Shown here one piece after another: positions 3,604 to 63,393 of a stretch of 64,000 nt of DNA (its first letter is position 1; every line of letters begins with the position of its first letter). Under the pieces are notes generated by a model. The model worked only from the letters and a program-made list of their open reading frames with translations. It was not told the origin of the DNA and ran no database searches. The stretch is taken from positions 4,494,356-4,558,355 of the forward strand of contig OZ022591.1 of the NCBI GenBank assembly GCA_963669155.1, written 5' to 3'. A program made the position numbers and the translations under genes. This DNA comes from Arbacia lixula. Taxonomy: Eukaryota; Echinodermata; Echinoidea; Arbacioida; Arbaciidae.

Positions 3604-3803
3604 CATGTTAAACACGGTACGTACATCGTTTTTCTGTGGAACTATGTGGATGGGATTAATGTGTGTATGCGGGAGGGGAAGGTATGGGGTGGGTAGTCCG
3701 GTTCTGCTTGTAGTCTTATTTCCTGTTGTGAGTTATGCAGAGGTAGGGCTTGTGCTGCCAGCGATGATGCATGTACTTTTAGTCTCCTTAAAATGTATTC
3801 ATA

Positions 3804-12663: not shown

Positions 12664-15600
12664 AAGAGAAACACAACACTTCCAAAGGCTTCTATACTAA
12701 TTGAACTATGTTAATGAAACTGATAGAATATTAATACTTCTTTAGAGGAATACTGATGAGTCACCTTATCAGTGGGCGGCTTGCCGTGCAACCACGCGGG
12801 GTAGTTCGGTGGAAATCCGTAGTTGTCGTACTGCCCGAAATTGACTGAGGCATGCCCGACACTGCAGATGAAGATGAAGTTAGTCACCGTGTCGACCACC
12901 TCCTCCACGCTGCGGAAATTCCCGTCGTTGGGAACGCCCTGGTCGTCAAAGACAAGATCGAGGAAGAGGGGTGAATGCCTGTAGTTCGGTGAGTTCGGTG
13001 AGGTAATTCACATGCACTACAAATTATGACGATGTCGCGTCATAAGGATGTGGTGTCGTCAAATCCATTCTTATGCGTGTTTCAGACTCTAAACAACATC
13101 ACTCAAGCGAGAGTTTCTTTGGTCTAGCGGGCTAGTGTCGGGTACTCCCAATGAGAGTCCCCGCTTAAATCACCCTTGTTTGCTCACCCACATAGTTTAG
13201 AAACAGATGTCCTGTCAACATGCTCATAATGACATTGTCGCACTTCGATACTCCACGCTGCAGAAAGTGTAGACAGTGACGACATACTGATGTTTGTGCC
13301 AGATATGAAAATAATATAAGAAAGTTATAATATCATTTAAATTCTGGTGTTTCACTGTTTGCCTACTAAATTGATACAACACAAAAAGTAGCTTTAAACT
13401 GAACTTGTTATCAAGACATGCAGAGATTAGAAGAGTATGTACTTTTTTATGTTACTTCAGGTAAGTTAAGTCAAATGTCAAAGCAAATTGTAGCTACTTT
13501 ACATAGAGTGCACGCCATTGATGAAGGTTATGGGATGTTTTAATTCTTTTGCCATCTTTTTTAAACTATGCTTTTATTACAAACATTTAGGTAATAGCTG
13601 GTGTATAGTGTCCTCCTCTGCCCTCCACCTGAAAGGTAATATGAGTCTTTTGCAAATGATTATCTAATTATCAAATTGTCATGATTGTTTATGTTATGTA
13701 AGTATGTTGTTCGATATACCGAGGGCTCCCGGGAAGAACTATGATTTGCTCACTGTTGGAGTTACCATGGTATATAATTTATGAGGACGGAATGAATTAA
13801 TAATTAAAAAAAAAAAACATTTGCCCATATTCATAGCAGAGGCTTAATACAAGCCGTGTCCTAAACCTGAACTAACTTCACGGGACGCCAAATCAAACAA
13901 CATGAAATATTACTATTGATTGAATATTATTATTTTTTTTCCTCATAATTACTCTGGTACTTAATTTGTCCACATGATATTTTTTTCAAATAAAAACTTT
14001 CTTTCTCAGCATTACATGTTCTTTCACAGCATGAATATTACAAATACACGTACAAGTGATGGATACATTAAATAGTCGATTACGGGCCTCTCTCTTAAGG
14101 CCCTTTTACACTTTCACGGATCGCATCACGGATCAACCCGGATCTTAATCCGGGATGTTCCGGCGTGCGACACCACGATTTCTTCTCGATGCCGGTGTGA
14201 ATACGTTCCAAACTGGGTGTATACACGGGCAAGTACGGTGTCTCCACGGACAGACAAGGTAGCAACGCGGACCACGCTAGAAACGCATACGGAGCTAACG
14301 CGGATTTCAAGGAAGAGCACGGAGGCTACTGGGTACTTTTAAGGTCCTTAAACGGAGGTGTACGTTGTCTATTGGGATATCTCCGGAATGTTGATGCGTG
14401 ACTTGTGCTTGTGGGCGCTCATTTAATCACTTACCTTCTCGGTCGACAACATGTCTTTAGAGTCAAATATGGCAAGCACGCCTGATTATGCTCCTGTTTG
14501 TGGACACCGTGAAGGTAAACTCCTTGTAGCAGAACCTCTTGTTTTGCAGCAACAGCATGGCATAAACAAAAAAAACTAGAGCAATTCGACTGCCACGCAG
14601 TCGATAAATATGCCTCCGCCTCTGTGCTAGCTCTATTTAGATTATTTATTAGATTGTTTGGTTGGGAATGTTCCAATGAAGTGCATTGACCTTTGACCTC
14701 TGATCTTTTAAGAAATTTCACCTAAAATATCACCAGTCTAGCCCCAAGAAGTGATCCATCTTTGCACCATGTGTAGTTGGTAATGTACCATTGGATTTGG
14801 ATTTATTGTGAAAAATATAAAGTATGGGGCAGTTTTTAGCCAATTTTGGCAAAGTGCGTTGACCTTTGACCTCTGACCTTTTAGAAATTTCACCAAAAAT
14901 GTCACCAGTCTAGCCCCAAGTAGTGATCCAGCTTTGCACCATGTTTATTTGGTAATGTACCATTGGATTTGGATTTATTGTGAAAAATAGCCAATTTTGG
15001 CAAAGTGCGTTGACCTTTGACCTCTGACCTTTAAGAAATTTCACCAAAAATATCACCAGTCTAGCCCCAAGAAGTGATCCATCTTTGCATCATGTTTAGT
15101 TGGTAATGTACCATTGGATTTAGATTTATTGTGAAAAATATAAAGTATTGGGCAGTTTTTAGCCAATTTTTGCAAAGTGCGTTAACCTTTGACCTCTGAA
15201 CTTTTAGAAATTTCACCAAAAATGTCACCAGTCTAGCCCCAAGTAGTGATCCAGCTTTGCACCATGTTTATTTGGTAATGTACATTTGGATTTGGATTTA
15301 TTGTGATAAATAGCCAATTTTGGCAAAGTTCATTGACTTTTGACCTCTGACCTTTCAGGAATTTTACCAAAAATTTTATCAGTCTATCCCCAAGTAGTGA
15401 TCCATCCGTGTACCATGTTTAATGAGAACTATATCCTTGGACTTGAATTTATTGTGAAAAAGATCAAATTTTTGCAATTTTTCACAAAGTTCATTGACCT
15501 TTGACCTCTAACCTTTCAGGAATTTTACCCAAAATGTCACAAGTCTACCGCCAAGTAGTGATCCATCTTTGTACCATGTTTGATGAGAATTGTATCCTTG

Positions 15601-16483
15601 GATTTGGATTTAATGTGAAAAAGGTCAATTTTGGGCAATTTTTCACAATGTTCAATGACCTTTGACCTCAATCAGATTTGACCCAAATTTTACACACTTC
15701 ATTGGTTTTATGCAATACACACAGGTACCAAGTTTGAAGCAAATCTGGTTCACGGTTCTCAAGATATTGCCGAAACGGATTCGGGACGGACGTACGGACG
15801 GACGGACGGACGGACGGACGGACGGACGGACGGACAACCCGAAAACATAATGCCTCCGGCCACTTCGTGGCGGAGGCATAAAAAGAAAGCTGCAAGGAAA
15901 CGGAGTGAGTAGGTGAAACCGTGGTTCCTCAAACGACCCACTTTACGGAAAGTATGATAAGTTGATAACCCCGGACCGATGATCCGGAATGATCCGTGAT
16001 GCGATCCGTGAAAGTGTAAAAGGGACAATAATCCATGGTTTACGCACCTTCATATTGACCGTGATCTCATCGGGATCTTGGCCCTTCCCTCCCAGTACTC
16101 GTCCCCACTCCTGAAGCTCATGGTCCCTAATCACCGCTTCCGACGAGTCTAGACACGAGTTACAACAGAGAGCAGGTACTCATTAAAGACAAGATAGCCC
16201 TTTTGCAGGTAAAACAATGTTAACAACCTGTAAAAAGGAGGGAAATACTGTTGGAAGAACCTCCCAAATTTCGAGCAGAATATTCTCTTTTCTTTATCTA
16301 TCGTCTCTCTATATATCAATACTTGTATTTGTTGTATTTGATATGTGAATAATTATGGATCTGTCTACTACTATCCAATCTTCTTCTGAGGTGTTCTACC
16401 CTCGGCTAAATATTAGTCATCAGTAATTTTCTTACATTTATCTCGTTATCCCTCTCATTCTCTGTATCACCACTCCGCCCCCC

Positions 16484-22800: not shown

Positions 22801-25800
22801 TGCAATGTCTCCGCCAATATGAGATGGCTTTTAATGATTATCATCCATGTCATTATTTCATGCAAATTTCCCATAGTTGGACTGGCGATTTTTCGGAAAG
22901 AACTCCTTTATTTGGCTAGATTGCCTTTTTTTTTTTATTGTAGCTCTATTCCTGAGATGTGTATAAAGCTTACAATCGGGATGAATCCCTAGTCTCATTT
23001 TAATACATTTTTTAACATTGATTCAAGGAATTAGACCAATCTTTTCTTCTAAAAAACAAAGGAGTTATGCCTTCTCTACTATTTCAAATTAAACTTGCAT
23101 GAATGGTGCATCTTGTTGACTATAATCAGAAGATCAAAAGATAAAAAACATCATGAAGTATAATCCCACGATACGTGCGAAATTGCTTCCACTTCATAAT
23201 TTGGGTGATGTTCGCTATTCCGAAGGTAAATTATTCTGAAGTTTCATTGTTCGTTATTATTGTTCGTTATTTTGCTCGTTATTTTGAAATATTGCTATTA
23301 CGAATGTTTGTTAATCCGAGGGAATGTTATTTTGAAGTTTCGTTTTTCCAAAGATTTATTATTTTGAGCAATTGTAATCTTACAGGCATGTTAGGGATGA
23401 AATGACAATAATTGCTCGTCGCATACTAGTATATATTATGAGAACCCATGAAAGTTCGAATAACTATCTTACAGATGAAACCGAAATTGGCCACTTATCG
23501 TCTTTTGTCGATCATTAAAGCGATAGTTCACCCTGAAATTATTTTTGTTTCAATAAAAGCAGACACAATCATGAAAGAAACATATTAGTGAAGGTTTGAT
23601 GAAAATCCGTCAAAGGATAAGAAGGTTAGGATCTTTAAAGGTTTGATTTTGTGATGTCACGTGCGAGGTGCTCTTCCATATTATGCTGTGTACAATTTTT
23701 TTTCCAAAACGTGCATTTTCTATGAAAAAAAATGTATCCTTGTACCTGTGCATTTGATACGTCATCAGAAATAAGTTTTTACACACATGCCTGTATGGGA
23801 GAAAAGATAATTCCGTTGGCAAAAAATGAACAAGAGCAATTTATGTGATTATATTATTTAAAAAAAACATATGGGAGAGCACCTCGCACGTGACGTCACA
23901 AAATGGAAATTTCAAAATCTAATAATTTTCATTTCCTTTGACCGATATTCGTCAAACGTTCACTAATATGTTTCCGTCATGTTTCTGCTTTTATTGAAAC
24001 CAACTTATCTCCAGGGTGAACCATCCCTTTAGATTAAATAGCTTCGGTAGATTTAAAGATTTTAGCACCAAGTTTAGCACAGAGTTTTCACGACTGGTAT
24101 ATGTTTGGGAAGCATTCGTTATTCCGAAGGTTCGCTATTCCGAAGATTCGTCATTCCGAAGGATCACTTTTCCCAAGGTTCGTTATTCCTCAGGTTCGTT
24201 AGTCCGAAAACGAAATAAGATTCGCTATTCAGAAGGTTCGTTAGTCCGAAAAAGAAACAAGGCTCGTTCTTTCCGAAGGTTCGTTTGTCCGAAGACGTTA
24301 AAAGGTTCGTTAGAACGAAAATATAAAAAAGTTCGTTAGTTTGAAAATTAAATAGTACTCATTTTAGTAACAAAAACGGTGTTCTGATTAAAGAGTAATA
24401 GGACATTATGCAATAAGAATCTCAGCGGAGGATGATACATGTGTAGGGTTTTCCCCCAGAAACGACACTTTTAATTTCCCTAGGTTTTCTAACATGTAGC
24501 CAACATTATCTCATTCATGTTTCACATATCACTCATTTTAATCATTCAACTCTTGATTTAGGATCTCCTTATTAAATGCATATTTGTCTTCATTATCAAC
24601 AACTCTTGGTATTAATTATCAATATGCATAGATTAGGGAAGATGTCTGTTTGTGTGTGTGTGTGTGTGGGGGGGGGGGGGGTTCGTTCATCCGAAAAATT
24701 TATTTTCGGATGAACGAACCTTCGGAAAAACGAACCTTCGGAATAATGCCACAAATGTTCGGATTAACGAACCCTTTTTCGTTTTCGTATTTACGAACAC
24801 CGGGGTATAGGCAATTTACGTGTTTCGGAATTACGGGCGAACCCTTCGGAATATCGAACTGTAACCATATGTTTAGGGGTGATCAAGTAGCCAAGGTCGC
24901 TACTGGTATAGTCCCATTCCATCCTTATATTTTTATTTCTCTTTTATCGATCGACAAATTCTCGGGAGTGAGAAGAATGATGCCGAGTTGGATCACTAGA
25001 GTATAGATTCGTGCTTGAATGAGAGGAAGGTCGATGACTCGATAACAGGGGCAAGCAATCAGATCCCCCCCCCCCCCCACCCTCGCCTCATCCCCATTCC
25101 TCCAGCTAGTATGCTAATCCATATAAAATAACGCTTATTTCTCTGTCTATCTCGATCTCTATCTCGATCTCCATCTCGAGGAAGGGAGGAAGAGGGGTTT
25201 GGATGCGAACTATTTCTCTTTTGAATTTCGAGAAATTGAATTTCGTAAAGGAAGTTCTATTCGGGGACTAGGCATTGAAGGACGGGCAACTTAATTCTAA
25301 AACCTTAGATATTCAAAATGGAAATGATGTTTTTGCTTATTAAATATAGAGGAGCTTATTTTCGGAAAGGAGCACAATTCATTTGGCCTACGCACATACG
25401 GACAACCTATTTCTAAACCTTTGGATATTTCAAATGAAGGAAGGGAATTTTGGCGAATGTTAATTACTCAATTGCTTATCAAATCTCGTTTAGAGAAATT
25501 GAATTTCGAAACAAATTCAGGGTTTTAGCAAGGACGGGGAACTGATTTTTTAAACTAGAAATGGCTTGCTCTCACTAAGGTGCACGTCTACAAATTCATC
25601 TATCTGACCATATCTATCATACGCATTCCCTTCAGTCTTCGTGGTCTCAAGCAGGTCTCGGAGACGCCTTCTCAGTCCCGGGCAATGTTGGTGTCCGGTC
25701 TCAGTCCCGGGCAATGTTGGTGTCCGAGACCTGCTGACTGGAAAAAGTCTCACCCATATTGAACATGTTTAAAGTTCCCGTGACCGTGACTCCCCGGAGA

Positions 25801-26901
25801 CCGGGCTAGCGGAGACTGAGTCGTCAGCAAGTCGCCAACTATTCTCCAAGGCAGTGAAATAGGACCTTAAAGGGGTAATTCATCATGAAATTATTTTGGC
25901 TTCAATAAAAGGAGACACATGATAGAAACACACTAGTGAAGGTTTGACGAAAATCAGTCAAAGAAAAAGAAAGTTATTTCATTTTAAAGTTTTGATTTTG
26001 TGTTGTCACGCGCGAGGTGCTCTCCCATTATGTTGTGTACAAATTTAATTTTTATATAAATTGCCTATTTTTCTGTTATTGTCAACGGAATGATTTTTTT
26101 TTTCGTACAGGTATGTGTGTAAAAACGTATTTCTCATGATTTATCAAATGCACAAGTAAACATGAGTAAAGGGATGCATATCTTTTTGAGAAAATGCACA
26201 TTTTCGAGAAAAAAAAATTGTCCACAACATATGGAAGAGCACATCGCACGTGACAAAATCAAAACTTAAAAATCAAATAACCCTTATTTTCCTTTGACCG
26301 ATTTTCGTCAAACCTTCACTAATATGTATTTTTTTTCATGTGTCTCCTTTTATTGAAGCCAACATAATTCCAGGATGAACTGTCCCTTTAAGTGTTAAGT
26401 GCTTCTCACCTGAGGAATGGCGGAGTTTCTCGAGAGCTGGTACAGCAGCTTCTTCTGCATGAGCTCCTGCTTCCGGTCGTAGAGCATGTCGTCTTTCTGC
26501 GGAAGTATCATGTCGTACGGCCGCAGCTTGAGCCGCTTGTTAGCAGGCACCCACCGATGAACGGGAAAGACATGCGTCTCCTTCGTCTCGAGGTTGGAGA
26601 CGACGATGAGGTCGCAGTACCAATCATCGAAGAGTCCCTTGCTGTCCCGCCACAGATCCAGGTTCGCCAGCCGTCCGAAGTCGGCCCGGCCGCACCAGCG
26701 CGTGAAGCGGTCCACCTGGCCGCTCTCGAAGTCATTTTTTAAGAAGGAGTCGAGGGCGAGGTCGGCGGATCGTCGGCCGTCCTCATCATGCAGAGCGACG
26801 ACCACGTTTGCGTCGGTACCCGCGCCTTTCCGATGACCGGTCTTAACAGTGATCGTGAAATGGGCGCCCAAATTAGTAATCTTAGAAAAAACGACGCCCA
26901 T
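11135..26901 (-). CDS. Lipoxygenase with N-terminal PLAT domain, 12 coding exons, 673 aa
   Basis: The enzyme dioxygenates polyunsaturated fatty acids to hydroperoxides using non-haem iron. Exons (in order): 26410-26901, 20546-20590, 19932-20060, 19333-19430, 18755-18887, 18216-18311, 17341-17555, 16700-16959, 16048-16148, 12765-12938, 11962-12125, 11135-11249. Every junction has GT/AG and matching phase, giving 2022 nt, the usual length for animal lipoxygenases. PLAT/C2-like domain about 1-115; catalytic domain about 125-673. Predicted iron ligands are H362, H367, H552, N556 and the C-terminal I673. In [11 protein letters not shown] the usual Leu and Arg before the second ligand are Gly and Phe. 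Ala405, in NNKAIA, aligns with the Ala/Gly stereochemistry switch (Ala in S-, Gly in R-lipoxygenases), predicting S product. Residues T419-M420 align with the 5-LOX Ala-Asn regiospecificity pair, so I do not assign a position. No signal peptide; cytosolic or membrane-associated. 5' UTR and promoter are undefined. Confidence 0.93.
11590..11950. repeat. Purine-rich (GA/GAA) tract in lipoxygenase intron 11
   Basis: About 360 bases of strongly strand-biased A/G sequence on the plus strand, directly next to exon 11; in the transcript it is a long polypyrimidine run. Open frames across it are compositional. Confidence 0.75.
11962..12125 (-). CDS. Lipoxygenase exon 11
   Basis: Codes residues 582-635 plus two bases of R636: [20 protein letters not shown], then helix [10 protein letters not shown]. 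Acceptor CCTCCACAG; the donor ACG/GTTGGT is weak but matches the exon 12 phase. Confidence 0.9.
12144..12319. repeat. MITE with GGGCCCT-TTGCATAAAA ends, copy 1
   Basis: GGGCCCTGTTGCATAAAACT at the left and its inverted equivalent ATTTTATGCAACGGGGC at the right, with ACCAATGG/CCATTGGT words inside. A second copy is at 48900-49059. It lies in lipoxygenase intron 10, 19 bases beyond the exon 11 acceptor. Confidence 0.75.
12395..12572. repeat. MITE family B (ACAACCCAGTCTGTTAACAAC), copy 1
   Basis: An inverted-repeat element with ACAACCCAGTCTGTCAACAA at one side and GTTGTTAACAGACTGGTTTG at the other; TGACGTCA at 12451-12458. Other copies are at 31491 (half), 46011 and 57494. Confidence 0.8.
12622..12668. 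repeat. (GA)n microsatellite
   Basis: AGATAGATAGAGAGAG and a long GA run in lipoxygenase intron 10. Confidence 0.9.
12765..12938 (-). CDS. Lipoxygenase exon 10 (third and fourth iron ligands)
   Basis: Codes residues 524-581. [15 protein letters not shown] carries H552 and N556 and is the family's most conserved block. Acceptor GACGACCAG, donor AAG/GTGACT, phase 0 at both ends. Confidence 0.94.
13105..13275. repeat. Dispersed repeat C, copy 1
   Basis: Shares ordered words with 28815-28990 and 46935-47095: a CACTCCCA/ACTCCCA-TGAGAGTCCC block, a GTTTGCTC block, CAACATGCTCATAAT and CACTTCG-TACTC. It could be SINE-like, but I could not confirm tRNA A and B boxes. Confidence 0.55.
14101..16024. 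mobile_element. Non-autonomous DNA transposon with long terminal inverted repeats
   Basis: CCCTTTTACACTTTCACGGA (14101 on) is mirrored by TCCGTGAAAGTGTAAAAGGG (ending 16024), and the match extends through GATCGCATCACGGATC. No transposase is visible. A second element (14576-15884) is nested in it. It sits in lipoxygenase intron 9, ending 24 bases from exon 9. No clear target-site duplication. Confidence 0.8.
14576..15884 (-). mobile_element. Pearl/HINE-like tandem-repeat element, copy 1 (nested)
   Basis: Bounded by CTAGAGCAATTCGACTGCC with a CGACTGC/GCAGTCG hairpin, and by a TGCCTCCGGCCAC...GTGGCGGAGGCA hairpin next to an (ACGG)n microsatellite (15787-15834). Between them are about seven core repeats, the first ones alternating roughly 173 and 151 bases because of a 22-base indel. 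Each core has TGACCT half-sites spaced by one base. The same element in the opposite orientation is at 61917-63393. The architecture resembles molluscan 'pearl' and insect DINE-1/Helentron-type non-autonomous elements; I see no encoded protein. Confidence 0.75.
16048..16148 (-). CDS. Lipoxygenase exon 9
   Basis: Completes D490 and codes residues 491-523: [20 protein letters not shown], the 'D-ELQ-W' helix of the family. Acceptor TGTCTAG, donor AAG/GTGCGT. Confidence 0.9.
16478..16660. repeat. (CT)n microsatellite tracts in lipoxygenase intron 8
   Basis: Two long CT runs separated by about 70 bases, with a short CA run. Arg-Glu and Ser-Leu frames here are artefacts. Confidence 0.9.
16700..16959 (-). 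CDS. Lipoxygenase exon 8 (stereo-control residue)
   Basis: Completes N403 and codes residues 404-489. Ala405 sits at the S/R switch position. [16 protein letters not shown] matches the conserved 'Y-YRDD-L-LW-AI' helix. Acceptor CCCTCCAG, donor TACG/GTAAGG, phase 1 out. Confidence 0.93.
17341..17555 (-). CDS. Lipoxygenase exon 7 (first two iron ligands)
   Basis: Codes residues 332-402 plus two bases of N403. [13 protein letters not shown] leads into [11 protein letters not shown], whose second and third His (H362, H367) align with the iron ligands; [10 protein letters not shown] follows. Gly364 and Phe365 replace the usual Leu and Arg. Donor GTAAGT gives phase 2. Confidence 0.94.
17562..17682. 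repeat. GA/GGA-rich tract beside lipoxygenase exon 7
   Basis: A purine-rich run on the plus strand immediately upstream (in transcript sense) of exon 7, forming an extended pyrimidine tract before its acceptor. Confidence 0.7.
18216..18311 (-). CDS. Lipoxygenase exon 6
   Basis: Codes residues 300-331: [20 protein letters not shown], the conserved 'AP-CLxY-x-LMPIAIQ' strand. Acceptor TTTTTCTTCAG, donor CCA/GTAAGT, phase 0 at both ends. Confidence 0.93.
18755..18887 (-). CDS. Lipoxygenase exon 5
   Basis: Completes N255 and codes residues 256-299: [12 protein letters not shown], then KRLFIIDY, the equivalent of the family's 'IFIVDF' strand. Acceptor TGTTTCACAG, donor GAG/GTAAGC, phase 0 out. 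Confidence 0.92.
19333..19430 (-). CDS. Lipoxygenase exon 4
   Basis: Codes residues 223-254 plus two bases of N255. [21 protein letters not shown] matches the conserved FGYQFLNG-NP segment of the family. Acceptor ACCCTCAG; the donor GTTTGT is weak but is the only one that restores the frame into exon 5. Confidence 0.9.
19681..19896. repeat. (CT)n-(CA)n compound microsatellite, duplicated
   Basis: CT runs followed by CA runs occur twice (about 19681-19750 and 19815-19896), just past exon 3 in lipoxygenase intron 3. Confidence 0.9.
19932..20060 (-). CDS. Lipoxygenase exon 3
   Basis: Codes residues 180-222, beginning [16 protein letters not shown] and ending PPTLPKPP. I chose the acceptor GATATCAG because the nearer TTTGCAG would give the wrong phase after exon 2. 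Donor CCG/GTAAGT. Confidence 0.88.
20406..20510. repeat. CA runs and a C homopolymer near lipoxygenase exon 2
   Basis: Two CA runs flank a 15-base C run, within about 40-140 bases of the 45-nt microexon. Confidence 0.85.
20546..20590 (-). CDS. Lipoxygenase exon 2 (45-nt microexon)
   Basis: Codes [15 protein letters not shown], residues 165-179, matching the conserved linker (lipoxygenases have a 'LPRD-F' type segment here). Acceptor TTTTTATCTAG, donor ATG/GTAAGT, phase 0 at both ends, so skipping it would keep frame. Confidence 0.88.
21301..21362. repeat. Exact 31-bp tandem duplication
   Basis: A 31-base unit starting TACCATTGTTGATTTCG is present twice back to back with no mismatch, in lipoxygenase intron 1. 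Confidence 0.9.
22091..22319. repeat. Palindromic MITE of about 230 bp
   Basis: AATCGTTTGTCTCG and CACGACGTTTCGTGCGCCGC are mirrored by GCGGCGCACGAAACGTCGTG and CGAGACAAACGATT around a centre near 22205. Lipoxygenase intron 1. Confidence 0.85.
23209..23360. repeat. Degenerate TTCGTTATTCCGAAGG-type minisatellite, block 1
   Basis: Imperfect repeats of TTCGTTATT and CCGAAG words. The same motif is clearer at 24115-24345 and inverted at 24682-24850. Confidence 0.65.
23517..24031. repeat. Foldback MITE family A, copy 2
   Basis: AAAGCGATAGTTCACCCTGA at the left, inverted CAGGGTGAACCATCCCTTT at the right; the arms share GTCACGTGCGAGGTGCTC and its inverse. Perfect TGACGTCA at 23891-23898, next to CACGTG. 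Confidence 0.85.
24115..24345. repeat. CCGAAGGTTCG minisatellite, block 2
   Basis: More than eight tandem units of about 17 bases built around CCGAAGGTTCGTTATT, with A-rich variants (GTTAGTCCGAAAA). Confidence 0.85.
24682..24850. repeat. CCGAAGGTTCG minisatellite, inverted block 3
   Basis: The same motif in the opposite orientation (GAACGAACCTTCGGAA), beginning with a TTCGTTCATCCGAAA hairpin. Confidence 0.85.
25647..25728. repeat. Tandem 28-bp duplication within a small inverted repeat
   Basis: Two copies of a unit containing CAGTCCCGGGCAATGTTGG, bracketed by GCAGGTCTCGGAGAC and the inverted GTCCGAGACCTGC. Confidence 0.75.
25868..26390. repeat. Foldback MITE family A, copy 3
   Basis: AAAGGGGTAATTCATCATGA and the inverted CAGGATGAACTGTCCCTTT ends; internal CACGCGCGAGGTGCTC. 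Ends about 19 bases from the lipoxygenase exon 1 donor (26409). Confidence 0.85.
26410..26901 (-). CDS. Lipoxygenase exon 1 (PLAT domain)
   Basis: Codes residues 1-164, starting [37 protein letters not shown] and FPVHRWVPA are PLAT hallmarks; Trp69, 84, 94 and 117 could help membrane contact. The donor is CAG/GTGAGA at 26409. The exon is markedly GC-richer than its flanks. The start is the only Met ahead of the PLAT fold. Confidence 0.93.
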
Positions 26902-28814
26902 TGTTTTTGTTTTTACCTGTCGCTTACTTTCCTTGCTTTACTCGGCGTTAAGTTGTCAAAACTGGAAATACATTAACTAACTGTTTGTACCACTAGTGCA
27001 TTCCGGCTCCTTCGTGTTGGGAATAAAGTTGTCTTTCGTTGGTAGACCAGTCATAAAGGCTTTCCAATTAGCTTACATAATATTGGAGTGGTCTAAAGCT
27101 CCACGAGTTCTGCGTTCTGCAAGTAGATCGTCGGACAAAGGGATTACTGGGCGGTCAACTGAATCGATACTCGCGGAATGAGTTCCAGCTCACCTTCTTT
27201 CATCAATGTCACTGGATCCGCATGGCATTCTCAATCAATAAACCCAGAATGGAACTGATAACCTTGAGTACGTTGAGAATTACCTAGCTCCGAAAAAATA
27301 TCTCGACATTAACCCGGTACGTTCAACTTTTATAACGTTTTAGCTTGTCGGACTACCTCAGAAGCTTGGAAACAAACGGAAAGTTCACAAGCAGTTTGAA
27401 AACACATTCCGTTTCGTTCTTTGGAAAATATTACAAACGCGAACCTAGCGCACCATTTTGATTCCTAAGCTAATCGCATGGAAACGTGCAATCATGCCTG
27501 TCTGATATGTTCTATACAAAAATGTTTGATGATTAACATGATCATTATAATATCGTCTTGTTCTACGACTTCAGCTGTGTTTGTATGAATATTTATTTTG
27601 AAGATACGAGGAAGATGAATGTGCAATTAGATCACACTTTGCGTAGGGAGAAAACGGGCCCAAGAAACATTGCAGTGTTTAACTCGTTTTGTCCTCATTC
27701 TCAGTTTTTACCTTTGGTATGCCAGACAAATTGGTTGTCTAAATGATTTGTGTGCATTACTCGTGGGAAAACAAACACATGGCACACAAAGATTTTAGAG
27801 TTTCTCATCGCCCTACCTCAAATGTATCATACCAGTGGTGACAAACGTTTGGAGAGGATATCGCGTAGTCATGGCAGCTATGTCGCGATTACCGTATTAT
27901 TGCGTTCACTTAACCGATAACGATGACTGTTATGATCGAATACCTCAATGTGAGTCTCGTGAATTTATTATGTGTATCTTTCTTGACTCCAGATCCGTGC
28001 CCCTCAATTAGAGGTTATCCCGAACTCGTCATCTTCTTCAAGACACAATGAAGGAGCGCCACCTCCAACTCCATCCGTCGTCGTTTTCTTCCTTACCCCT
28101 TCTGCCCTTCCTGTTCAGATGAGAATGATCGAGGATGGTTATGATCGCGGTAACCACTGGAGTAAACCAAGCTGCGTTGAAGCTTACAGGGCTGCCAAGT
28201 TCGAACTAAGTGACATCCCCGAGTAGTGAGTGATGCGGTTGCATTAGTAATACATATCCATAAAATCATGAAGATGGAGGGTAGTTACAGAGACCTGTGA
28301 TTTGGTACTTGCTGTTCCCATGGTTCCTGCACGTACTATCTTGCTCCAGTTACACACAGAAATAGATCGTCTTCTATTTCTGTGGTCCTTATCCTGTGAA
28401 GACACTCTACATACGTCAGAGTTAAATGGTCGTTGAACTAACGTACACCATGCATGAAGAAAAGTGGTGCGTTTCAAGAGGACGCTGCACTTCCTTTATA
28501 TCACACGGTATTCTTCAACCAAGTGCCCCACCGTTGTCAGTATTACTGTTCTGGATCAGCCTTTATTAAGTTCAACGCTTCGCTAATTTGTGCGCGCTAA
28601 CAATTGACAAGCTCATTTTGTGTTTGAGGCTATTGTAAGCTCTTTCCTGCACCCTTAAGAACTTCTTAAGAAGTTAACTTTGACCTGATTGATTCTCTTG
28701 ATCTGGGAATCCTCATGGTGCCAGACAATGTGGAGCGACGAAGTGATGTCGTCGTGTCCATTGTTACGCAGGTTCCTGGTTCTGAACAATTATCGCTCGA
28801 TTGAGAGTTTCTAT
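26902..28814. other. Upstream flank of the lipoxygenase gene
   Basis: Should contain the lipoxygenase 5' UTR and promoter (minus strand), but no TATA box or initiator stands out. Short open frames on both strands lack motifs. No repeat family recognised. Confidence 0.4.
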
Positions 28815-46300: not shown

Positions 46301-49300
46301 GCTTTTTAGGCTAAAGGATCGTGTTTCATGCTGAACTGGACAAAATATACCGCGGTTTACAACTGTGGCTCCTTCCCTTTCTTCCCTTACCCTTTACCCA
46401 TGCCAATTCCTTTGAGCTGTAGTGTATGTATCTAGTGTTTTGGTTTTGATTGGTGAAACGCACTCTAAATCTAGTAGTTATTGCTACTCGGACAAACCTC
46501 GGTCAAGATTTGGAGTTACCATCAGAAATGTATTGTTTGAAAGACATGGATTACATTTGCAAACATAGCACACACGGCAGATATTTGCAGAAATTATCAA
46601 TTTACATTGTTCCTCCACACTTTACAGGATTCATGTGAAGTGGACGCCCTTGATCGCTATGAGGAGGAGTGTAATGGAGAAGTGGTTACTCTGTGGCCAT
46701 GCAACGCTGGGGAGAGGAGGGTGTGGTGGTGTGACCCAGCAGGGAACAGCCCCACCCCACCAAACTCACACTCCGACATGTACGTCTGCTTTCATGCTTT
46801 CAATTGGTCATTTGATTCATTGGTCTGTTCATTCATAACAGTGGTTTAACTTATACTGATCAAAGACTATAGAATACCAAAGTGGTGTTGTCATATGACC
46901 ATGTTGTCAAGACCATTGGTTCAAAACAAACTCACTCACATGAGAGGTTTAGTGGTCTGATATTGTCTATCGGGGAAGTGTCGGGCATTCCCAATTACAC
47001 ACCCCGCTGTGATTACCGCTGTTTGCTCTACCTGCATTGTTTAGAATCGTGACAATAATGCTCAAATGACGACAATTTGGTACTCTATTAACTTCATGGG
47101 GCGCAAAATGGATCATTAATGCTTTCACAATATCATTGGTTTTCATCACAGAATCACAACAGTGGGTGTTTTCAATTATTAGCTGTAAATATTATGTAGA
47201 CAAGCTCAATTACCTAAGCGATTCCAGGAACGAAATCAATTATATTGAATCAGTAGTAATGTTTCAAATAGTTTTATTTGGCATCACATAAAGTATGTCC
47301 AGGTGAAGAACACTATTTGCCTTTATCCTATTCTAACGGGGTGTGGGGGGGGGGGGAGGGGGTCATTTTGACCCCCACCGGCTCCACGTACAAAATTCAT
47401 AACTGACAGGCAACTGCTTCACATGGTAACACGCCTTTTCATGACTTGTTCTTTTGAAGTGTCTCACAAGTTTTGAGACCAAGTTTGATCAAATTGGACT
47501 CTGCGTTTTAAAGGTTGCGCAACATATCGCAAATGTCAAATATGACAAAAAGTGACATTTTACATAGGTCTGTGTACAAAGTACTGGTTTTCCTGTTGCT
47601 CTTAATCATTGTCAATTACGCCTTCTAGGTCTTTTGCTTGATCCCATTGTTCTTCAAACTTATCAATATATATATATATATCTGTAGCAAAGAAATGCAT
47701 AAAAATATAGAATAAATTTGAAATAAAAAAAAACATTACACATAAGAAAATTAAATACACAATGAAATACTTAAGAACTGATTTGAAATTTGAAAGTTTT
47801 TAAACATGATATTGTTGATTATGCTACTCAGGTTATTACAAAAAAAGTTTGATTTTTTTTTTTTAATAAAATATGAATGAGAAGATTTTGTAAAAATATG
47901 CATCGACATTCTAATTTCCATGAGTTATTATAATTTACACAGAATGGAATATTTTTGCCTACAACAAACTATGTAGCCACTTTTAACATCTCCTTGCAAA
48001 ATTTTGTGTCGAGATAACCTTTTGTGGCTGAAATATTGGGGGGGGGGGCAAAATTACCTCTAATGTCATCGAACAGGTGAGTGCCTTCCCCCGCCCCCCC
48101 CCCCCCCCCCTCCTTGCTACACATTCTTAGAGCGTTATGACAAACTCCCCACATTTCCTTTAACAGGTGTAATAACTGCCCCCGGCACACCTTCCGTGAC
48201 AACTACAACAAATGTCCCTCCTGCCTGCCCTGCTCCCAATGCCAGGCCGGAGAGGTCGAGAAAGAGCCGTGCATGGCTGACCAGGACATTGTCTGTGAGC
48301 CGGACGGGGGCTCAACGGGCACCACCACACCACCACCTTCAACCACTGGGGCGGTGGTAGACACCACCACCACCACCACCACCACCACCACCACCACCAC
48401 CACCACACCCACCCCAAAACCCACAACTCAGCTGCCTCCTTCCCCCACGCCTGCAACTCCTCCTCGGCCAAGCACTACTGCTACTTCTTCTGAGCCTGGA
48501 ACCCAAGGCACCACAGAGCCACAGACAAGACCCCCAGGTAGGTGCTCTCTTCATGCGCTGATATGCAGACTATTAAACATGCTATATTCGGCTATTTCGC
48601 GAGCACTTACCGTACTGACCGCCGTACATGTATAAGCCATGGATTTTTTCCCTTGAAAATCACGTCAAAGTCCAGCTGCGGCTACTACGCGGCATTACAT
48701 GTAGCTGTCTGGTCTTTAAAACCAACACGTAATATGGGACTATGCATTGTGTGACAAATAAGGAAGTGTATACTGCCATCTCCTGGCCGCCGGAGATCGA
48801 AGAAACAAAGGCGGCAAGCATCTAACGGAGTTTGCTAGTTTGAGCCTTAGCTTTCTCATTTACGGTATTTATGAGTCATCTCGAACAAATACTACTCCTG
48901 GCCCACGTTGCATAAAAGTTATTATTAATGGTAACTCTGTCATTAATGGTAACTACCATGGTAATACTGCTCCACAGCCAATCAAATATGAGGTTTCCAT
49001 AGATGTTACCATTGATAGGAAAGTTGCCATCAATGGTAAGTTTTATGCAATAGGGCCCTAGTGCTTTCTTAGTTTCTGTAATTTTGCTGGTGATATGATT
49101 GATTGATTACTGGTACATCGATTGTGTTGCAATGAATGGCTATCGAAGCCATCTATTTTGTTGTTGAATATTGTCACATAATGCATAGTCCCAGACATGT
49201 GTATACACGTGTTGGTTTGAAAGACCAATTTTTTTTTTTTGAAATTGTGTGCTCAAAGTCGGGGTGCAGCCTATCTGCAGCTAATACAACGGTCAGTATG

Positions 49301-52404: not shown

Positions 52405-55400
52405 TAGTAGTAATAGTAGTAGGAAAGGGAGGAGTAGAGGTAGTAGGAGGAATAATGGAAGTAGTAGTCGGAGGAGAAGGAGATGTGGAAAGAGCAGGAG
52501 GAGGAGCAGTAAGTAGTAGTAGAAGCAGAAGAGAGATTTGCACGTCTATAGTCGAGCTCACCAAGATAGCCACTGTCCAGAAGAAGCATGTCTGTAGTAG
52601 CAGCAGTGAAAAAATATAAGAAGAGCCAGTTTTTACTCATCTAAGCAGTGGTGAATCAACCCTGAAATCATGGAGAGACGTTCGTTCATAAGAAGTCCAC
52701 AATGTTTTAAATTGAATCGTGCAGCATGCATAACATACAGTTGCCCCATGATCTAGCACCATCTATTCATAGATTTTCAATTATCAGGGGCTGTCACATC
52801 TGTGATTATGGGCGGTGATTATTGTGTAAGATTATGATTTCACTGAAACACAATTTTGAGGAGATTCTTTCAAGTAACAATTTGGTAGCGTGTCATAAAA
52901 TGAAATAGAAATCTCTTGAGCATTATTTTGTGCTTACCACTACCATCCTTATCTTCAATTAGTCTTTGAGCAAATATAAAGTTCAAAGTAAATTTGTGAA
53001 ATGTCTCTTGTGTTGCTCTTTCTCGACAGAATGACATTAAGTTTGATACAAATGTATGTTTGAACAGTGCAATTCACTAATACATTAAGGTAAATGTTAT
53101 GAGTTTTGAAAAAGCAATGACCAGGTATAGGACAAGCAAATTTTCGTCATAAGATATCATGGCAATATTCTTGCAGCAAGCTGCTCCTAGAGACTTGTCC
53201 TATTTAAATCTCTTTTCGTTCTTTTTCTCCTCTTGCTTCATGTACATCCCCAGATCCTCTTCTCCAAGTTAGAGTGGAGAGGCCTTTTTCTGCAGAAGTG
53301 CCTGAGAGGAATGAACAACAGATGAGCCCCTCGTCAGCGGAGTGTCCCCTGGGTGGCCAGACCCCTACTACCCGAAAGGAGCCTGTCTATGCTAAAGTCC
53401 GGAAAATGCCTCGACCATGGTCAACTCCAAATGGCGTGGGAGGTGCGGGAGGCAGCGGGTTTACGTACAGACCAGTGGATGGGGTACCAGGCAGTGACTC
53501 CATCGAGATGACAGACTTGAACTTTGCTGCACCACCCATTCACTGTGCCTCTGCCTCGCCAAACACCCATGAAGGAGGAGGGAGTATTCAAGCAACCAGC
53601 GACGCCCATCCTGCCAATGGTGCCACTGAAGACAGAGGCGCACATCCAGCCAGTATTATCCCCAAGGTCCCGGGTTACAGTAGAACTCAGGGTGCCAGTC
53701 CACCTGCCGATGATTCCTTAGTCGATGAATCTATTGGTGCTGATGCTAGTCCCTCCTCTGACCCCCTTCCCAGAGAGGGGAGTGACATTGATGGAACCAC
53801 AGACAGTAATTCATCATCCGGGACTCGTCCGACCAGTGGTGCTCACCACAAAAACCCCGGTACCTCAGCAGCACCCGTTAGTGTTGATGCTAATGACTCC
53901 TCAGTTGTTCCTGGAGGTAACACTCATGCAGTGGCTGGTATACTGCCACCCGCCGGCCCAGATCCAGGCACAACCACCAGTACCACAGCTACGGCCACCT
54001 CCAATGGGAGTACAGACCCTGACAACCCCGATGTGACCCCAGGGAGCGATGGGGATGAGGAGGAGCCCATAGGCAGTGTGAACAATCCTAGGGGAAACGA
54101 TCCGGTGCACGGCCCTTCCTCAACTGGTGCAGGTACGCTAGAAGACTCCTCTCTAGTAGTAGCAGCAGAGCAAATGATAAATATTTATTAGCAGGAGTTT
54201 CTTTTCAAGCGTGATACCAAGAAAAAAACACACTTTGCATTATATGAGAAAAACAAAATTTGCACAGGATTTCCTGTGTTGTACGGGGGGGCTCTTTTTT
54301 GCATTGCAAATGCTAAATCACCCTGAGCACTTGGGTAATTGTTTACCTAAGCAGCAGTTAAAAGATGTAGAAGTGGAGAAGAAGGAGTAGTAGTATTAGT
54401 AGCAGAAATGGGGGTGGAAGCAATGATAATAGTGGTGGTAGTAGTAGTGCAGCTTACTCTCGACACAATGAGCAGAGATATAACAAGGTCTCTTTATAAC
54501 GAGAGAAATTCAAGGGCGAGCTGGCCAAAAACACCGGTACCACACGAAGCCAGACACACATCTCGTAGTACACACAACGCGAGCATGTGCACATTTCCTG
54601 ACACATCACTCCTTCGCACAGCGAACATACATTGAAAGTCCAATCCCGTCACGTCAATCAGTGATAGGGCACGTGCTGAGTTGTGGTTACCGGTATGTCT
54701 GATGAGAGAGAGAGACACTCTTATTTTAGTAAATCCACCTTCCCCTTATTTCCCATTCGGCCCGTTGCGCCACACGTCCTCTTGTTTGTCCAAACAATCA
54801 CTAAACCACATGTTTTCTTGTCTAGAAGATTACAATAACAACTTTTTTTTACCAGTTTATATGCTGCAAAATAGCACCCATTGTATCGTGAATGGGGTAT
54901 ATTCATGTCATTTAATGCAATAAGCTATTAAAGTGGCAAAAATATATCATGGCTGGATGATGTGTTAAACAAACAAATACATCCCGTTTATAGTTTGAAA
55001 ACATGCATATCCAATCGCTTTTTTAGTTTGAAAACGCACATTCCCAATCCCTTTTTTCAGTTTGATAACGCATGTTTCCAAGACAGCTATGGATATCAAA
55101 AACATTAACACACACAAGCACACATATTTTATTGTTTTTTAGTCCGTTTGAATACAACAAGGTTTCATTATACCGAGGAAAAAGTCCTGGGTGGTATTTC
55201 ATAAAGAAGTGGTTTGCAATAATTGGAAATCTCGAAACTATGGCAAAGTCACTTTGCCATAATTGGAAATTGCCATAATTGGCAAAATCGATTTCATAAC
55301 TCCAATGACAACTTGATCACGAATTGCGGATGGATTACGTACGGGCGCATGCGCACAACGCTCATTTTTGGCCGTCTGCTCGCCGAAATGGTGGAAAGTC

Positions 55401-58400: not shown

Positions 58401-61400
58401 CTGTATTGTGTACTTTGTTAATGACTGGCATTTTCTACATACATTATACATGTATATGTACAGTTTTTATTTCTTTAGGAGTGGTGCAACCTCTCTTGGG
58501 ATCCAAGACACCTCCAATGACTCAGGAGACACTACTATCACTCAGAGAAATGCTTTTAATGTTGATGGCTATCACCAATTGCAGCAGTAAATTCAGTAAT
58601 TGTCACTGTTCAGAGATTTGCCGCAGTTTCGGACGTTCGCCGCACCTCTTGGAGCTGCGGCGAAAATTTGCCGCAATTGAGCCAATTATGGCAATTTTTT
58701 CTGCGGCAAAAGTTTTATGAAATTGAAATTTGCCGCTAAATCAAAAATTGCCGCTGAATTTCAAGTTTGCCGCTGATTTTTGAGTTTGCCGCTGCCGTTG
58801 ATGCTTTATGAAATACCACCCTGGTTTGAACGACCTCGTGATATCGATTGTAAGCTGTAATAGTAGTAGTAGTGGTTGCAACAGTAGTGGTAGTAGTTGT
58901 ACATGTAGGTATTAGTATTAGTCGCAGTGGTTATAGTACATGTACATGTACTATAGTACTATTTGTAGCACTAGGGATAGTCCGCCTGAAATTAAGTAGA
59001 TTTTGACGAAAGCAGAAACGTGAAAGAAACATATAAATGAATGTTTGATGATTTGATGATTTTGTGATGTCACGCTCGAGACGCTCTACTATATGTTGTG
59101 TACTAATCTTTTTGAAAGTGTTGATTATATCAACTGGATGTGCATCATATTTCCTTCGCATTTGAAACATCTTTAGAACATGTTGTTACAAACATACCTC
59201 TATGAAACAATAATTATTCCTTCATCAAAGGGCGTGTTTATCAACTCTTTTTTTGGGTAGAATTAAGGTTTCCAAACGCGTTTGAATTTTTTTAAACGCG
59301 TTTAAACAAGTTGATAAACGCAAAGGTGTTTTGATTAGGGGGTTTGTAAAGCTGTTTTGAAACACGCAAATTTGTACGATCCTTAACGCGTTTAAAGAAG
59401 CGAGATAAACACAAAGCTGTTTTGAAACGCGTTTAAACCATGTGTTTTCGGTGACAAGGCCAGTTCTCAACTTGGGCGATCGAGTTGATTAACGCACCGT
59501 ATTTTAAACGCGTTTGGAAACGTGTTTGGAAACGCGTTCGTAAAGGCCTTTGGAAACGCGTTTAAATATCTGAAAAGTTGATAAACACGGCCAAAATTTA
59601 TCGAACAATATAGGAGACAACAAATAAGGGAGTGATACATGATGTCACAAAATTGAAAATTTCATATTCTCTGACGGATGTTTGTTGTCAAACCTTCACT
59701 AATCATATGTTTCTTTTATGTTTCTGCTTTTATTGAAACCAGCTTAACTTCAGAGTGAACTTTCCCTTTAAGTAATAGAAGTACATGTAGAAGTAGAATG
59801 AGGAAGAGGAAAACTTGTGCAAATTTATTGCTATTTTATTTCTGCTTTTATTGTCTCGCCCACCGGAGGTGAAGGCGAGACTAAGGGATCCAAATGGCGT
59901 CCGTCCGTCGTCCGTCCGTCGTCCGTCGTCCATCACAAATGTTAAAGTTTACCTGCAAGACTCTCTTATGATCCATAACTTCACATGGGTTGCTTGGATT
60001 ACAACCTAACTTGGGTCATAGATGCGCTGGGGGTACCTTCATGTTATGGTGGCGTTGGAGGTCACAGGATGAGGTCAAAGGTCATTTGAGGTCATACGTT
60101 AAAGTTTACCTGCAAGACTCTCTTTTGACAAATAACTTCACATAGGTTGCTTGGATTACAACCTAACTTGGGTCATAGATACACTGGGGGTACCTTCATG
60201 TTATGGTGCTGTTGGAGGTCACAGGATAAGGTCAAAGGTCATTTGAGGTCATACGTTAAAGTTTACCTGCAAGACTCTCTTTTGACAAATAACTTCACAT
60301 GGGTTGCTTGGATTACAACCTAACTTGGGTCATAGATGCACTGGGGGTACCTTCATGTTATGGTACCGTTGGAGGTCACAGGATAAGGTCAAAGGTCATT
60401 TGAGGTCATACGTTAAAGTTTACCTGCAAGACTCTCTTTTGACAAATAACTTCACATGGGTTGCTTGGATTACATCCTAACTTGGGTCATAGATGCACTG
60501 GGGGTACCTTCATGTTATGGTGACGTTGGAGGTCACAGGATAAGGTCAAAGGTCATTTGAGGTCATACGTTAAAGTTTACCTGCAAGACTCTCTTTTGAC
60601 AAATAACTTCACATGGGTTGCTTGGATTACAACCTAACTTGGGTCATAGATGCACTGGGGGTACCTACATGTTATGATGCTGTTGGAGGTCACAGGATAA
60701 GGTCAAAGGTCATTTGAGGTCATACGTTAAAGTTTACCTGCAAGACTCTCTTTTGACAAAGAACTTCACATAGGTTGCTTGGATTACAACCTAACTTGGG
60801 TCATAGATGCACTGGGGGTACCTTCATGTTATGGTACCGTTGGAGGTCACAGGATAAGGTCAAAGGTCATTTGAGGTCATACGTTAAAGTTTACTTGCAA
60901 GACTCTCTTATCACACATAACTCATCACATGTTGCTACAATGGCAATCAAACTTGGATGATGGATGCACTGGGGCCACCTGCATGTTATTGTGCTGTAAG
61001 AGGTCACATGATAAGGTCAAAGGTCATTTGAGGTCATACATTAAAGTTTACTTGCAAGACTCTTGGTGAAGGCTTCCTAACTTGTGCACAGAATTGTGTG
61101 AGCATGTGTGAGCATTACTGATGTAGATTTAGGCAAACATTACTCATGCACATTTATGCAAATTTATTCAAAGTCACTATTTTGCACCTGATTTTGATGT
61201 TGTCTGTTTAAAGTTGCTTATTTGTTTGTTTCAGTTTTCTTTTGCGTAGCAACGGAGATCGCGATATTTCTGGTTATTTTCGCAAGTGTGCAAGACACAA
61301 TATTGCTAATGCCTTGTTTGATTTAACCAGAATCACCAGCTGCAAGTGGCACACTCGGAGGCCAACGACCTCAAGAGGCTTCAAACAATCAAAGCACTTC

Positions 61401-61916: not shown

Positions 61917-63393
61917 TTTTTATGCCTCCGCCACGAAGTGGCCGGAGGCATTATGTTTTCGGGTTGTCCGTCCGTCCGTCCGTCCGTCCGTCCGTCCGTC
62001 CGTACGTACGTCCGTCCGTCTGTACGTCCGTCCGTCCGTCCCGAATCCGTTTAGGCAATATCTTGAGAACTGTCAAGCAGATTTGCTTCAAACTTGGTAC
62101 ATGTATGTATTGCATAAAACTAATGAAGTGTGTAAAATTGGGGTCAAATCTGATTGAGGTCAAAGGTCAAAGGTCAATGAACTTTGTAAAAATTGCCCAA
62201 AAATGACCTTTTCCACAATAAATCCAAATCCAAGGATGCAATTCTCATTAAACATTATACAAATATGGATCACTACTTGAGGATAGACTGGTGATATTTT
62301 TGGTAAAATTCCTGAAGGTCAGAGGTCAAAGGTCAATGAAATTTGTGAAAAATTGTCAAAAATTGACCTTTTTCACAGTAAATCCAAATCCAAGGATGCA
62401 ATTCTCATTAAACATCGTACAATGATAGATCACTACTTGGGGATAGACTGGTGACATTTTTGGTAAAATTCCTGAAAGTTCAGAGGTCAAAGGTTAATGA
62501 ACTTTGCCAAAATTGGCTAGAAATTGCCCCAAACTTAAATTTTTCACAATAAATCCAAATCCAATGGTGCAATTCCTACCAAACATAGTGAAACGAAGGA
62601 TCATTACTTGGGGGTAGACTGGTGACATTGTTGGTGAAATTCCTGGAAGGTCAGAGGTCAAAGGTCAATGAACTTTGCAAAAATTGATATTTTTCACAAT
62701 AAACCGAAATCCAAATCCAATGTCACAATTCTAACTAAACATGGTACAGAGATGTATCACTTCATGGAGGTAGACTGGTGAAAGTTTAGGTAAAACTCCT
62801 GAGAGTTCAAAGGTCAAAAGTCAATGAACTCTGCCAAAAATTAGCTAAAAATTGCCCCCAAAGTGATAATTTCCAAAATATATCCAAATCCAATGGAGCA
62901 ATACCAACCTAACATGGTGCAAAGATGGATCACTAGACTGATGACATTTTTGGTGAAATTTCTTAAAGGTCACGGATCAAAGGTCAATGAACTTTGCCAA
63001 AATTGGCTAAAAATTGCCCCCAAATAGATATTTTTCACATTAAATCCAATACTAATGATTCAATTCAAACCAAACATAGTATAGAGATGTATCACTTCAT
63101 AGAGGTAGACTGGTGAAGTTTGGGTAAAATTCCTGAAAGGTCAAAGGTCAATAAACTTCACCCAAAATTGGCTAATTTTAAACAAACTTGATGCAAGGAT
63201 GGATTTAGACAGACTGGCTAGATTGGAAGTCAATGAATATTGCCAAACTTAGCTAAACTTGAAAAAAGAAAATGTGATACTTTCATTTCACATAGAAGCA
63301 ATGGTACATTGCCCACCAAACATACACATTTTCTGAGAATAGCAAAGAGGCGGAGGCATATTCATCGACTGCGTGGCAGTCGAATTGCTCTAG
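61917..63393 (+). mobile_element. Pearl/HINE-like tandem-repeat element, copy 2
   Basis: The same family as 14576-15884, reversed: GCCTCCGCCAC hairpin cap, (CCGT)n at 61968-62040, then several core repeats of about 150-175 bases with AATCCAAATCCAA and AGACTGGTGACATTTTTGG, closing with a CGACTGCGTGGCAGTCG hairpin. Perfect one-base-spaced AGGTCA triplets at 62157, 62316 and 62648. Confidence 0.82.

Follow-up and report, generated by a model that had tools for sequence, protein, structure and literature searches.

The window analysed here is a stretch of 64,000 nucleotides from the sea urchin Arbacia lixula (assembly GCA_963669155.1, contig OZ022591.1, positions 4,494,356 to 4,558,355 of the forward strand), in which a tandem array at 59941-61063 forms the centre of an element from a family of non-autonomous Helentrons (HINEs). 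The full units of this array carry AGGTCA, the half-site of nuclear-receptor response elements, in direct repeats separated by one base (DR1) and by four bases (DR4). Two further arrays with DR1 heptamers, at 14679-15669 (minus strand) and 62157-63151 (plus strand), lie in two copies of a second HINE family. The three elements, here called A, B, and C, are new representatives of an already known kind of element, and their parts are located as follows (subTIR, subterminal inverted repeat).

59853-61317, plus strand: element A, a HINE built around the 157-bp array, with a 3' subTIR that has decayed in the window copy.
59853-59881, plus strand: 5' end of element A, with the subTIR GTCTCGCCCAC and the complementary inverted repeat GGCGAGAC forming a hairpin, identical in 20 of the 20 genomic copies compared.
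59898-59927, plus strand: CGTCC/GTCC microsatellite of element A.
59941-61063, plus strand: central tandem array of element A, seven units and a partial unit of 24 bp, with four AGGTCA per unit at spacings of 7, 1, and 4.
60883-61039, plus strand: unit 7, the right-edge monomer type, with 28 differences from the consensus and intact half-sites; the same type is found at loci L031, L032, L037, L040, and L047.
61286-61317, plus strand: 3' end of element A, with the decayed subTIR GTGTGCAAGAC (two mismatches from GTGGGCGAGAC), the palindrome CAATATTG, and the terminus GCCTTGT; the intact form occurs in 19 of 20 copies.
61922-63393, plus strand: element B, of the second HINE family, with the subTIRs ATGCCTCCGCC/GGCGGAGGCAT, a hairpin, (GTCC)n at 61966-62041, the array with DR1 heptamers at 62157-63151, the palindrome TCGACTGCgtgGCAGTCGA at 63365, and the end CTAG.
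14576-15879, minus strand: element C, a second copy of the element B family, with the array at 14679-15669, inserted within a transposon that has terminal inverted repeats; uninterrupted paralogous sites exist.

The array of element A was recovered by Tandem Repeats Finder with a period of 157, 7.2 copies, 94% matches, and 0% indels, in line with the indel-free period proposed by the reading of the sequence alone (hereafter, the sequence-only reading), and it comprises 7.15 units, that is, seven full units followed by the 24-base partial unit. The composite of DR1 and DR4 in one orientation, which the same reading had described in seven units, is present at unit offsets 131, 138, and 148, and the additional half-site that it placed upstream of the DR1 is found at offset 118, each in 7/7 units, so that all 28 of the 28 half-sites are intact and on the same strand. 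These direct repeats with spacings of one and four bases have the sequence pattern of DR1 and DR4 response elements, and the consensuses of the families carry a perfect DR1 with A as the spacer. The window as a whole contains 76 AGGTCA, in comparison with an expectation of 32.9 +/- 5.8, and none of 100 shuffles reached 76. The description of the array as exact is appropriate for units 1-6, which differ from one another at 2-10 positions, but not for unit 7, which has 27-31 differences from the other units in 157 positions, nor for the partial end. The other two DR1-bearing arrays of the window had no place in that reading.

The architecture of the three elements is that of the HINEs. Subterminal inverted repeats of 11-15 bp are present at both ends of element A (GTCTCGCCCAC/GTGGGCGAGAC) and of elements B and C (ATGCCTCCGCC/GGCGGAGGCAT), and the 5' subTIR is accompanied by an inverted repeat (the hairpin), which is followed by a microsatellite (the CGTCC/GTCC tract) and then by the central monomers. 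At their 5' end, elements B and C have ATGCCTCCGCC accompanied by a complementary inverted repeat, followed by (GTCC)n and full monomers of 151-173 bp, with GGCGGAGGCAT near the 3' end, the palindrome TCGACTGCgtgGCAGTCGA, and the end CTAG; the 3' palindrome has an 8-bp stem (TCGACTGC/GCAGTCGA). The ends of family A were compared in the first 20 of the 23 arrays listed, which had been recovered with a 29-mer outside the four half-sites, and TTTTT followed by GTCTCGCCCAC was found in 20/20 copies and GTGGGCGAGAC followed by ACAATATTGCTAATGCCTTGT in 19/20. The 8-base 3' palindrome of this family, CAATATTG, was seen by eye, and a scripted search for stems found no longer one in 18 of 19 copies. 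The TTTTT preceding the 5' end in all 20 copies is consistent with a T-rich target, but these Ts could be the element's own; the window copy is preceded by TTTTATT. The list of open reading frames, which covers those of 130 aa and longer, has none within elements A, B, and C.

Evidence of transposition is provided by element C, for which a query made of the joined flanks recovered 40 genomic matches, two of which are the flanks in the window itself; of the remaining 38, 36 extend through the joint. In three empty sites that were aligned, the insertion is into an A/T run with no other duplicated bases, that is, a T-rich insertion without a target-site duplication, as is typical of the HINEs. 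The transposon that hosts element C, at about 14100-16018, has the terminal inverted repeat CCCTTTTACACTTTCACGGATCGCATCACGGATC and 38 other genomic matches to its interior. In the consensus of family B, for example at 62171-62183, the DR1 continues into AGGTCAATGAACT, an inverted repeat of the ecdysone/FXR-response type with a spacing of one base, which is located within a stretch of low divergence.

The genome (607 Mb in 590 contigs) was surveyed for both families. Family A has about 2,000 recognisable 3' ends (1,978; control 0) and about 10,000 monomers, its core 29-mer giving 10,173 matches at up to three mismatches (control 0), and the core of family B has 6,113 matches (control 0). The exact DR1 AGGTCANAGGTCA occurs 28,986 times, compared with 144 for the reversed pattern, an excess of about 200-fold, whereas the exact DR2 (two-base spacing) occurs 366 times against 112 for its control (about 3-fold). 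Among the first 100 DR1s listed (contig C1, 0.28-3.72 Mb), 46 belong to family A, 46 to family B, and eight are elsewhere, so the two HINE families, with 92/100, account for most of the perfect DR1 motifs sampled in the genome, and every insertion brings in from one to many DR1 motifs, accompanied in family A by DR4. The suggestion of the sequence-only reading that a mobile element could spread receptor-type sites is thus borne out. In a check independent of DR1, the (GTCC)4 tracts in the first 3.73 Mb of C1 gave eight listed starts at seven loci, all of family B, and all eight of these starts have a DR1 on the same strand at a distance of 128-303 bp. One of the eight DR1s outside families A and B, at locus L059, is in an apparent third HINE family with a single monomer, in which TTTTT followed by GTCTCGCCTG was seen by eye at one end, and CAGGCGAGAC with the palindrome GTGGTTCGCGAACCAC at the other.

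Long Helentron-type frames in this genome may be the source of the transposition machinery of the HINE families. The domain Helitron_like_N has 43 matches, 29 of which lie in open frames of 3,190-3,346 aa. Two copies share identical downstream stretches of 2,500 bases, which makes recent activity likely. The tail of one of these frames matches Exo_endo_phos weakly (E=0.0069, below the Pfam cut-off), a domain of the kind found in the endonuclease that the Helentrons encode, according to the part of the source available (PMC4067079). Many copies of Helitron_like_N score equally and have uninterrupted frames of about 3,280 aa, as at C7:23926757 and C15:14193056.

The reading favoured here, which is held to be probable, is that these HINE families spread DR1 motifs, and in family A also DR4, through the genome, with the DR1 segment being kept in the copies that propagate and decaying neutrally after insertion, and with a putative recruitment of nuclear receptors. 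The HINEs would move by rolling-circle transposition, with the Helentron Rep-helicase-endonuclease presumably supplied in trans, and the monomers would be amplified within the arrays. The DR1-bearing segment may be retained in the propagating copies either as a module acting in cis at the level of the element or as an inherited core, for which there is modest support, and the inserted copies would then decay neutrally. If the DR1 is kept only while the element propagates, most copies would not be host regulatory sites under selection. The leading guess, if the module acts at all, is that in the germ line it might recruit host DR1-binding receptors of the RXR, HNF4, COUP-TF, or TR2/4 class, which would open the chromatin or pair the arrays.

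A different account, to which somewhat less than an even chance is given, treats the arrays as a passenger satellite, in which the DR1 belonged to the ancestral HINE monomer and persists through recent amplification and the homogenisation of the arrays, with no function for either the element or the host. Family A, which looks young, agrees with this account. The sequence-only reading had stated that the half-sites remain intact while other positions vary, and this is true of the window array, in which none of the 24 half-site columns is variable, compared with 38/133 elsewhere (p=0.001). This value results from the inclusion of unit 7, however, and in units 1-6 alone the figures are 0/24 and 15/133 (p=0.13). 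As the changes of unit 7 recur in the last unit of other genomic copies, they are inherited rather than a product of independent decay. When truncated and misframed units are set aside, the edge units of family A that have diverged are of two inherited types, of which the right type has 27-28 changes, with none in the 24 half-site columns (p=0.007 in simple draws), and the left type has 33-34, with one in the half-site columns (p=0.015 in simple draws). About 27 bp beyond the half-sites are also almost unchanged in both types, which indicates that a block of 50-60 bp is kept in family A, and not the half-sites as such.

The genome-wide counts for family A point in the same direction, given that the 23-base composite of DR1 and DR4 is intact 9,939 times, and the adjoining 23-mer GTTAAAGTTTACCTGCAAGACTC, which has no half-site, 9,866 times. 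In the local set of 123 units (126 less three that had more than 40 differences), the composite window ranks second of 135 and the control ninth, with 112 and 109 intact, respectively, and a median of 88. The intactness of the half-sites in this young family is not specific to them. A conservation specific to the half-sites, as suggested by the p=0.001 of the window and by the 85 middle units (0.0015 versus 0.0210), was rejected on the basis of the equally intact control 23-mer and the spared block without half-sites, and the intact half-sites of this array do not support a receptor-specific constraint. A tally of columns with an allele common to at least three loci (1/24 in the half-sites versus 35/104 in 126 units, p=0.0024) was set aside, as the set includes misframed and truncated edge units, and the same tally in 107 near-consensus units gave 0/24 versus 16/104 (p=0.041). 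The contrast between shared and private alleles in the cleaned set is not significant (p 0.15-0.17), and the alleles private to one locus number 0.167 per half-site column in the near-consensus units, compared with 0.337 elsewhere (p=0.12).

Family B looks older than family A. The model of this family was built from the window's own monomers, and 175 of the 248 monomer matches, from 46 loci, cover at least 75% of it (the remaining 73 were dropped). The half-site columns are divergent at a rate of 0.060, compared with 0.179 in the others (p=0.0014), a category that leaves out the 29 columns used to find most of the loci, for which the rate is 0.090. Of the 138 windows of 13 bp, the four with the least divergence are the DR1 itself or shifts of up to three bases from it, which is a point against the passenger satellite. 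The mutations private to one locus behave differently, with 0.54 private alleles per DR1 column as against 0.51 in other columns (0.39 in the three half-sites together), as would be expected of a passenger. The decay-rate comparison proposed by the sequence-only reading is thus answered in two parts, since no part of the monomer is less diverged in total than the DR1, while private mutations fall on it as often as on the other columns. These data give modest support to a constraint on the DR1 in the copies that go on to spread, and show no sign of host selection on inserted copies. A possible enrichment of receptor-tolerated variants (RGKTCA) was considered and rejected; AGTTCA leads the variants of the first half-site in family B, with 44 rows, but at the other two its frequency is equalled or exceeded by AGATCA, AGGTTA, GGATCA, and others, so that the pattern is suggestive at one site only.

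The private alleles also bear on whether the arrays are held by host selection as dense receptor-binding enhancers, which was the view taken by the sequence-only reading and is considered very improbable here. A perfect DR1 with A as the spacer, as carried by the consensuses of the families, would suit such platforms, and there is a precedent in the Alu repeats, which spread DR2 and HNF4 sites that are bound in vivo at the loci tested, according to the parts of the two sources available (PMC1785376, PMC3252374). A function in the host would be expected to protect the inserted copies, yet no depletion of private DR1 alleles was detected in the 175 monomers from 46 loci of family B, a comparison of limited power, and the conserved block of family A takes in some 27 bp with no half-site.

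A number of results weigh against the favoured reading itself, beginning with the control 23-mer of family A, which is as intact as the composite. In family B, the contrast between shared and private alleles is in the expected direction for the DR1 (odds ratio 0.33-0.60), but it is not significant (p 0.11-0.29), and for the three half-sites together the odds ratio is 0.55-1.03 (p 0.27-1.0). A smaller set of 108 monomers of this family gave p=0.026-0.05 at some thresholds only, and the contrast weakened with the addition of more loci. Private alleles are somewhat fewer in the half-sites of both families (0.39 versus 0.51 in family B, 0.167 versus 0.337 in family A), so neutral decay after insertion is not firm either. 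With regard to the machinery, the 3' sequence of the putative autonomous element contains a single half-site in 2.5 kb, a stretch that stops short of the terminus of the element.

Arrays with DR1 are also found in other sources. Contigs of prokaryote genomes were scanned for two DR1s 137-167 bases apart, which gave 32 matches, and the three that were looked at closely as animal-like (L091, L096, and L102) are probably animal DNA within bacterial bins. Contig L102, which has a HINE-like structure, was binned with the gill symbiont of the mussel Bathymodiolus brooksi, while L091 and L096 come from the bin Glo_2 and were judged to be animal from their HINE-like structure alone. In L091, the subTIRs are ATGTCCACCCC/GGGGTGGACAT, TTTTT precedes the 5' end, and a short CGTCC-like tract and the end CTCTAG are present, and L102 has the hairpin GTCTCCC..GGGGAGAC together with an inverted repeat that matches. 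Their monomers read TTGAGGTCAAAGGTCAAGGTCA. As these contigs were found via the DR1, they show that DR1-bearing HINE-like arrays exist, and not how common they are. Several bacterial metagenome contigs (L085, L086, L094, L103, L111, and others) have runs of AGAGGTC-type heptamers, which can also be read as chains of DR1. In the viral contigs, neither the exact 27-mer of family A nor the double-DR1 pattern had any match.

The DR1 is the common denominator of the three HINE families of this genome and of two HINE-like families elsewhere. No clear similarity outside the half-sites was found between the arrays from outside this genome and families A, B, and L059 in 21 pairs with shuffle controls, and one weak match, between family A and the second monomer type of L091, had a score reached by 9/200 shuffles, uncorrected. 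These negatives mean little, since the masked letters had been removed from the shuffled controls and single monomers were used. The persistence of GAGGTCAAAGGTCA in HINE-like arrays of two other sources, with little else detectable in common, speaks against a mere passenger, though these arrays were found through the DR1. Within this genome, the box ATCAAACWTGGTACAAA is common to the edge unit of family A, family B, and L059, with pair scores reached by 0, 0, and 7 of 200 shuffles, and descent explains part of the sharing of the DR1, as the passenger account would have it. The main unit of family A matches neither family B (38/200 shuffles reach the score) nor L059 (54/200).

The orientation of the half-sites raises another possibility, namely that the directly repeated AGGTCAA heptamers may be binding sites for the Helentron Rep or accessory factors, with a coincidental likeness to receptor sites. 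The iterons of rolling-circle replicons are the analogy for directly repeated Rep sites. The half-sites lie on the strand of the 5' hairpin in all 28 cases in element A, in 15 versus 2 opposite in element B, and in 15 versus 1 in element C, and the polarity of the arrays relative to the hairpin in L091 and L096 is the same as in A, B, and C. The spacing of the heptamers and the fact that the constraint, if any, is in the propagating copies would also suit such sites. The first site is more than 200 bp inside the 5' end in elements A and B, however, the array of L102 is apparently opposite in polarity relative to its hairpin, and there is a lone half-site in the 3' stretch of the putative autonomous element, whose terminus lies beyond it. 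Iteron-like sites are considered quite unlikely.

The sharing of the DR1 by families in this genome and elsewhere would also be expected if selection at the level of the element kept it, with host receptors bound in the germ line raising the rate of transposition or of array amplification, an idea that is seen as doubtful. The receptors NR2F2 and NR2C2 can bind tandem (TCAGGG)n telomere variants, and have been proposed to aid telomere interactions in cells with alternative lengthening of telomeres (ALT), according to the part of the paper available, although its title argues for an indirect role of NR2F2 in ALT (PMC7691514). In its broadest form, the DR1 core GAGGTCAAAGGTCA would be a conserved cis module of the tandem-repeat Helentrons across animal phyla. 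By recruiting receptors of the RXR/HNF4/COUP-TF/TR2-4 class in the germ line, it would favour mobilisation or the amplification of arrays, and these elements would thereby have come to supply most of the DR1 motifs of at least one echinoderm genome, where the approximately 29,000 sites might titrate the receptors. This proposal is thought unlikely to hold as a whole.

As the DR1 exceeds its control about 200-fold in this genome, and 92 of the first 100 listed lie in two transposon families, scans for DR1 motifs and readings of chromatin immunoprecipitation (ChIP) or ATAC must allow for this. Should the arrays prove to be occupied by receptors, they would offer a natural example, and a dense one, of how a transposon rewrites or titrates a hormone-receptor network, and the question of whether receptor recruitment helps rolling-circle elements to spread would become testable.

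The window contains other features. A frame of 1,249 aa at 3792-7541 (plus strand), with endonuclease, reverse transcriptase, and zf-RVT domains, is a long interspersed nuclear element (LINE) with an intact-looking second frame. A cysteine-rich exon of the TNFR type (E=1.7e-9) with a Thr-rich stalk is located at 48141-48635 (plus strand), followed at 53208-54191 (plus strand) by a long low-complexity open frame with no Pfam match, and elements A and B may sit in introns of a gene of this kind. A PLAT/LH2 domain exon lies at 26395-26937 (minus strand). Clusters of short palindrome-like repeats occur at 24115-24352 and 59230-59580 (TTCGTTATTCCGAAGG; AAACGCGTTTGG).

The DR1 core shared by these HINE families has apparently been unremarked so far. 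No literature linking the Helentrons with nuclear-receptor motifs was found in a search that left subscription journals mostly outside, and neither "aggtca" nor "tgacct" occurs in the main texts of the satellite and Helitron papers PMC5139131, PMC11136912, and PMC8268682.

A close parallel is provided by the Alu repeats, in which, as in the HINEs described here, a transposable element supplies most of the copies of one receptor-motif spacing. In the available parts of the sources, more than 100,000 consensus DR2 are attributed to Alu repeats (PMC1785376), and the HNF4 sites in Alu are discussed as a "sink" (PMC3252374). The Alu is a short interspersed nuclear element (SINE) with dispersed single sites, DR2 in type, and binding demonstrated by ChIP (PMC1785376, PMC3252374), whereas the present case involves a Helentron with DR1 (and DR4) in tandem arrays, known from sequence alone.

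The structural parallels are found among the Helentron-derived elements and bivalve satellites, which are likened here by description and not by sequence. DINE-1 and HINE-Mo share with elements A, B, and C the subTIRs, the 3' palindrome, the central repeats or microsatellite, and a TT or T-rich target with no target-site modification, and the portion of the source available mentions no motif of the nuclear-receptor type (PMC4067079). The Cg_HINE of the oyster Crassostrea gigas has the same arrangement of a 5' subTIR with a complementary inverted repeat, a microsatellite (GTCY/GTCC in several), a central satellite-like array, and a 3' subTIR with a palindrome, as well as T-rich insertion without target-site duplication; the sections available describe two conserved segments common to the monomer groups and do not mention AGGTCA (PMC7492417). 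In these sections, most of the oyster arrays are short, and the consensus monomers of the 13 clusters measure 138-181 bp (PMC7492417), a range in which the 157-bp period of the array of element A is ordinary for HINE central repeats. The Pearl/CvA elements and the bivalve BIV160/Cg170 satellites, as far as the available text describes them, similarly have central repeats of about 160 bp in short arrays inside mobile elements, and their monomer family, which is long-lived, has two conserved motifs (PMC7492417, PMC5139131).

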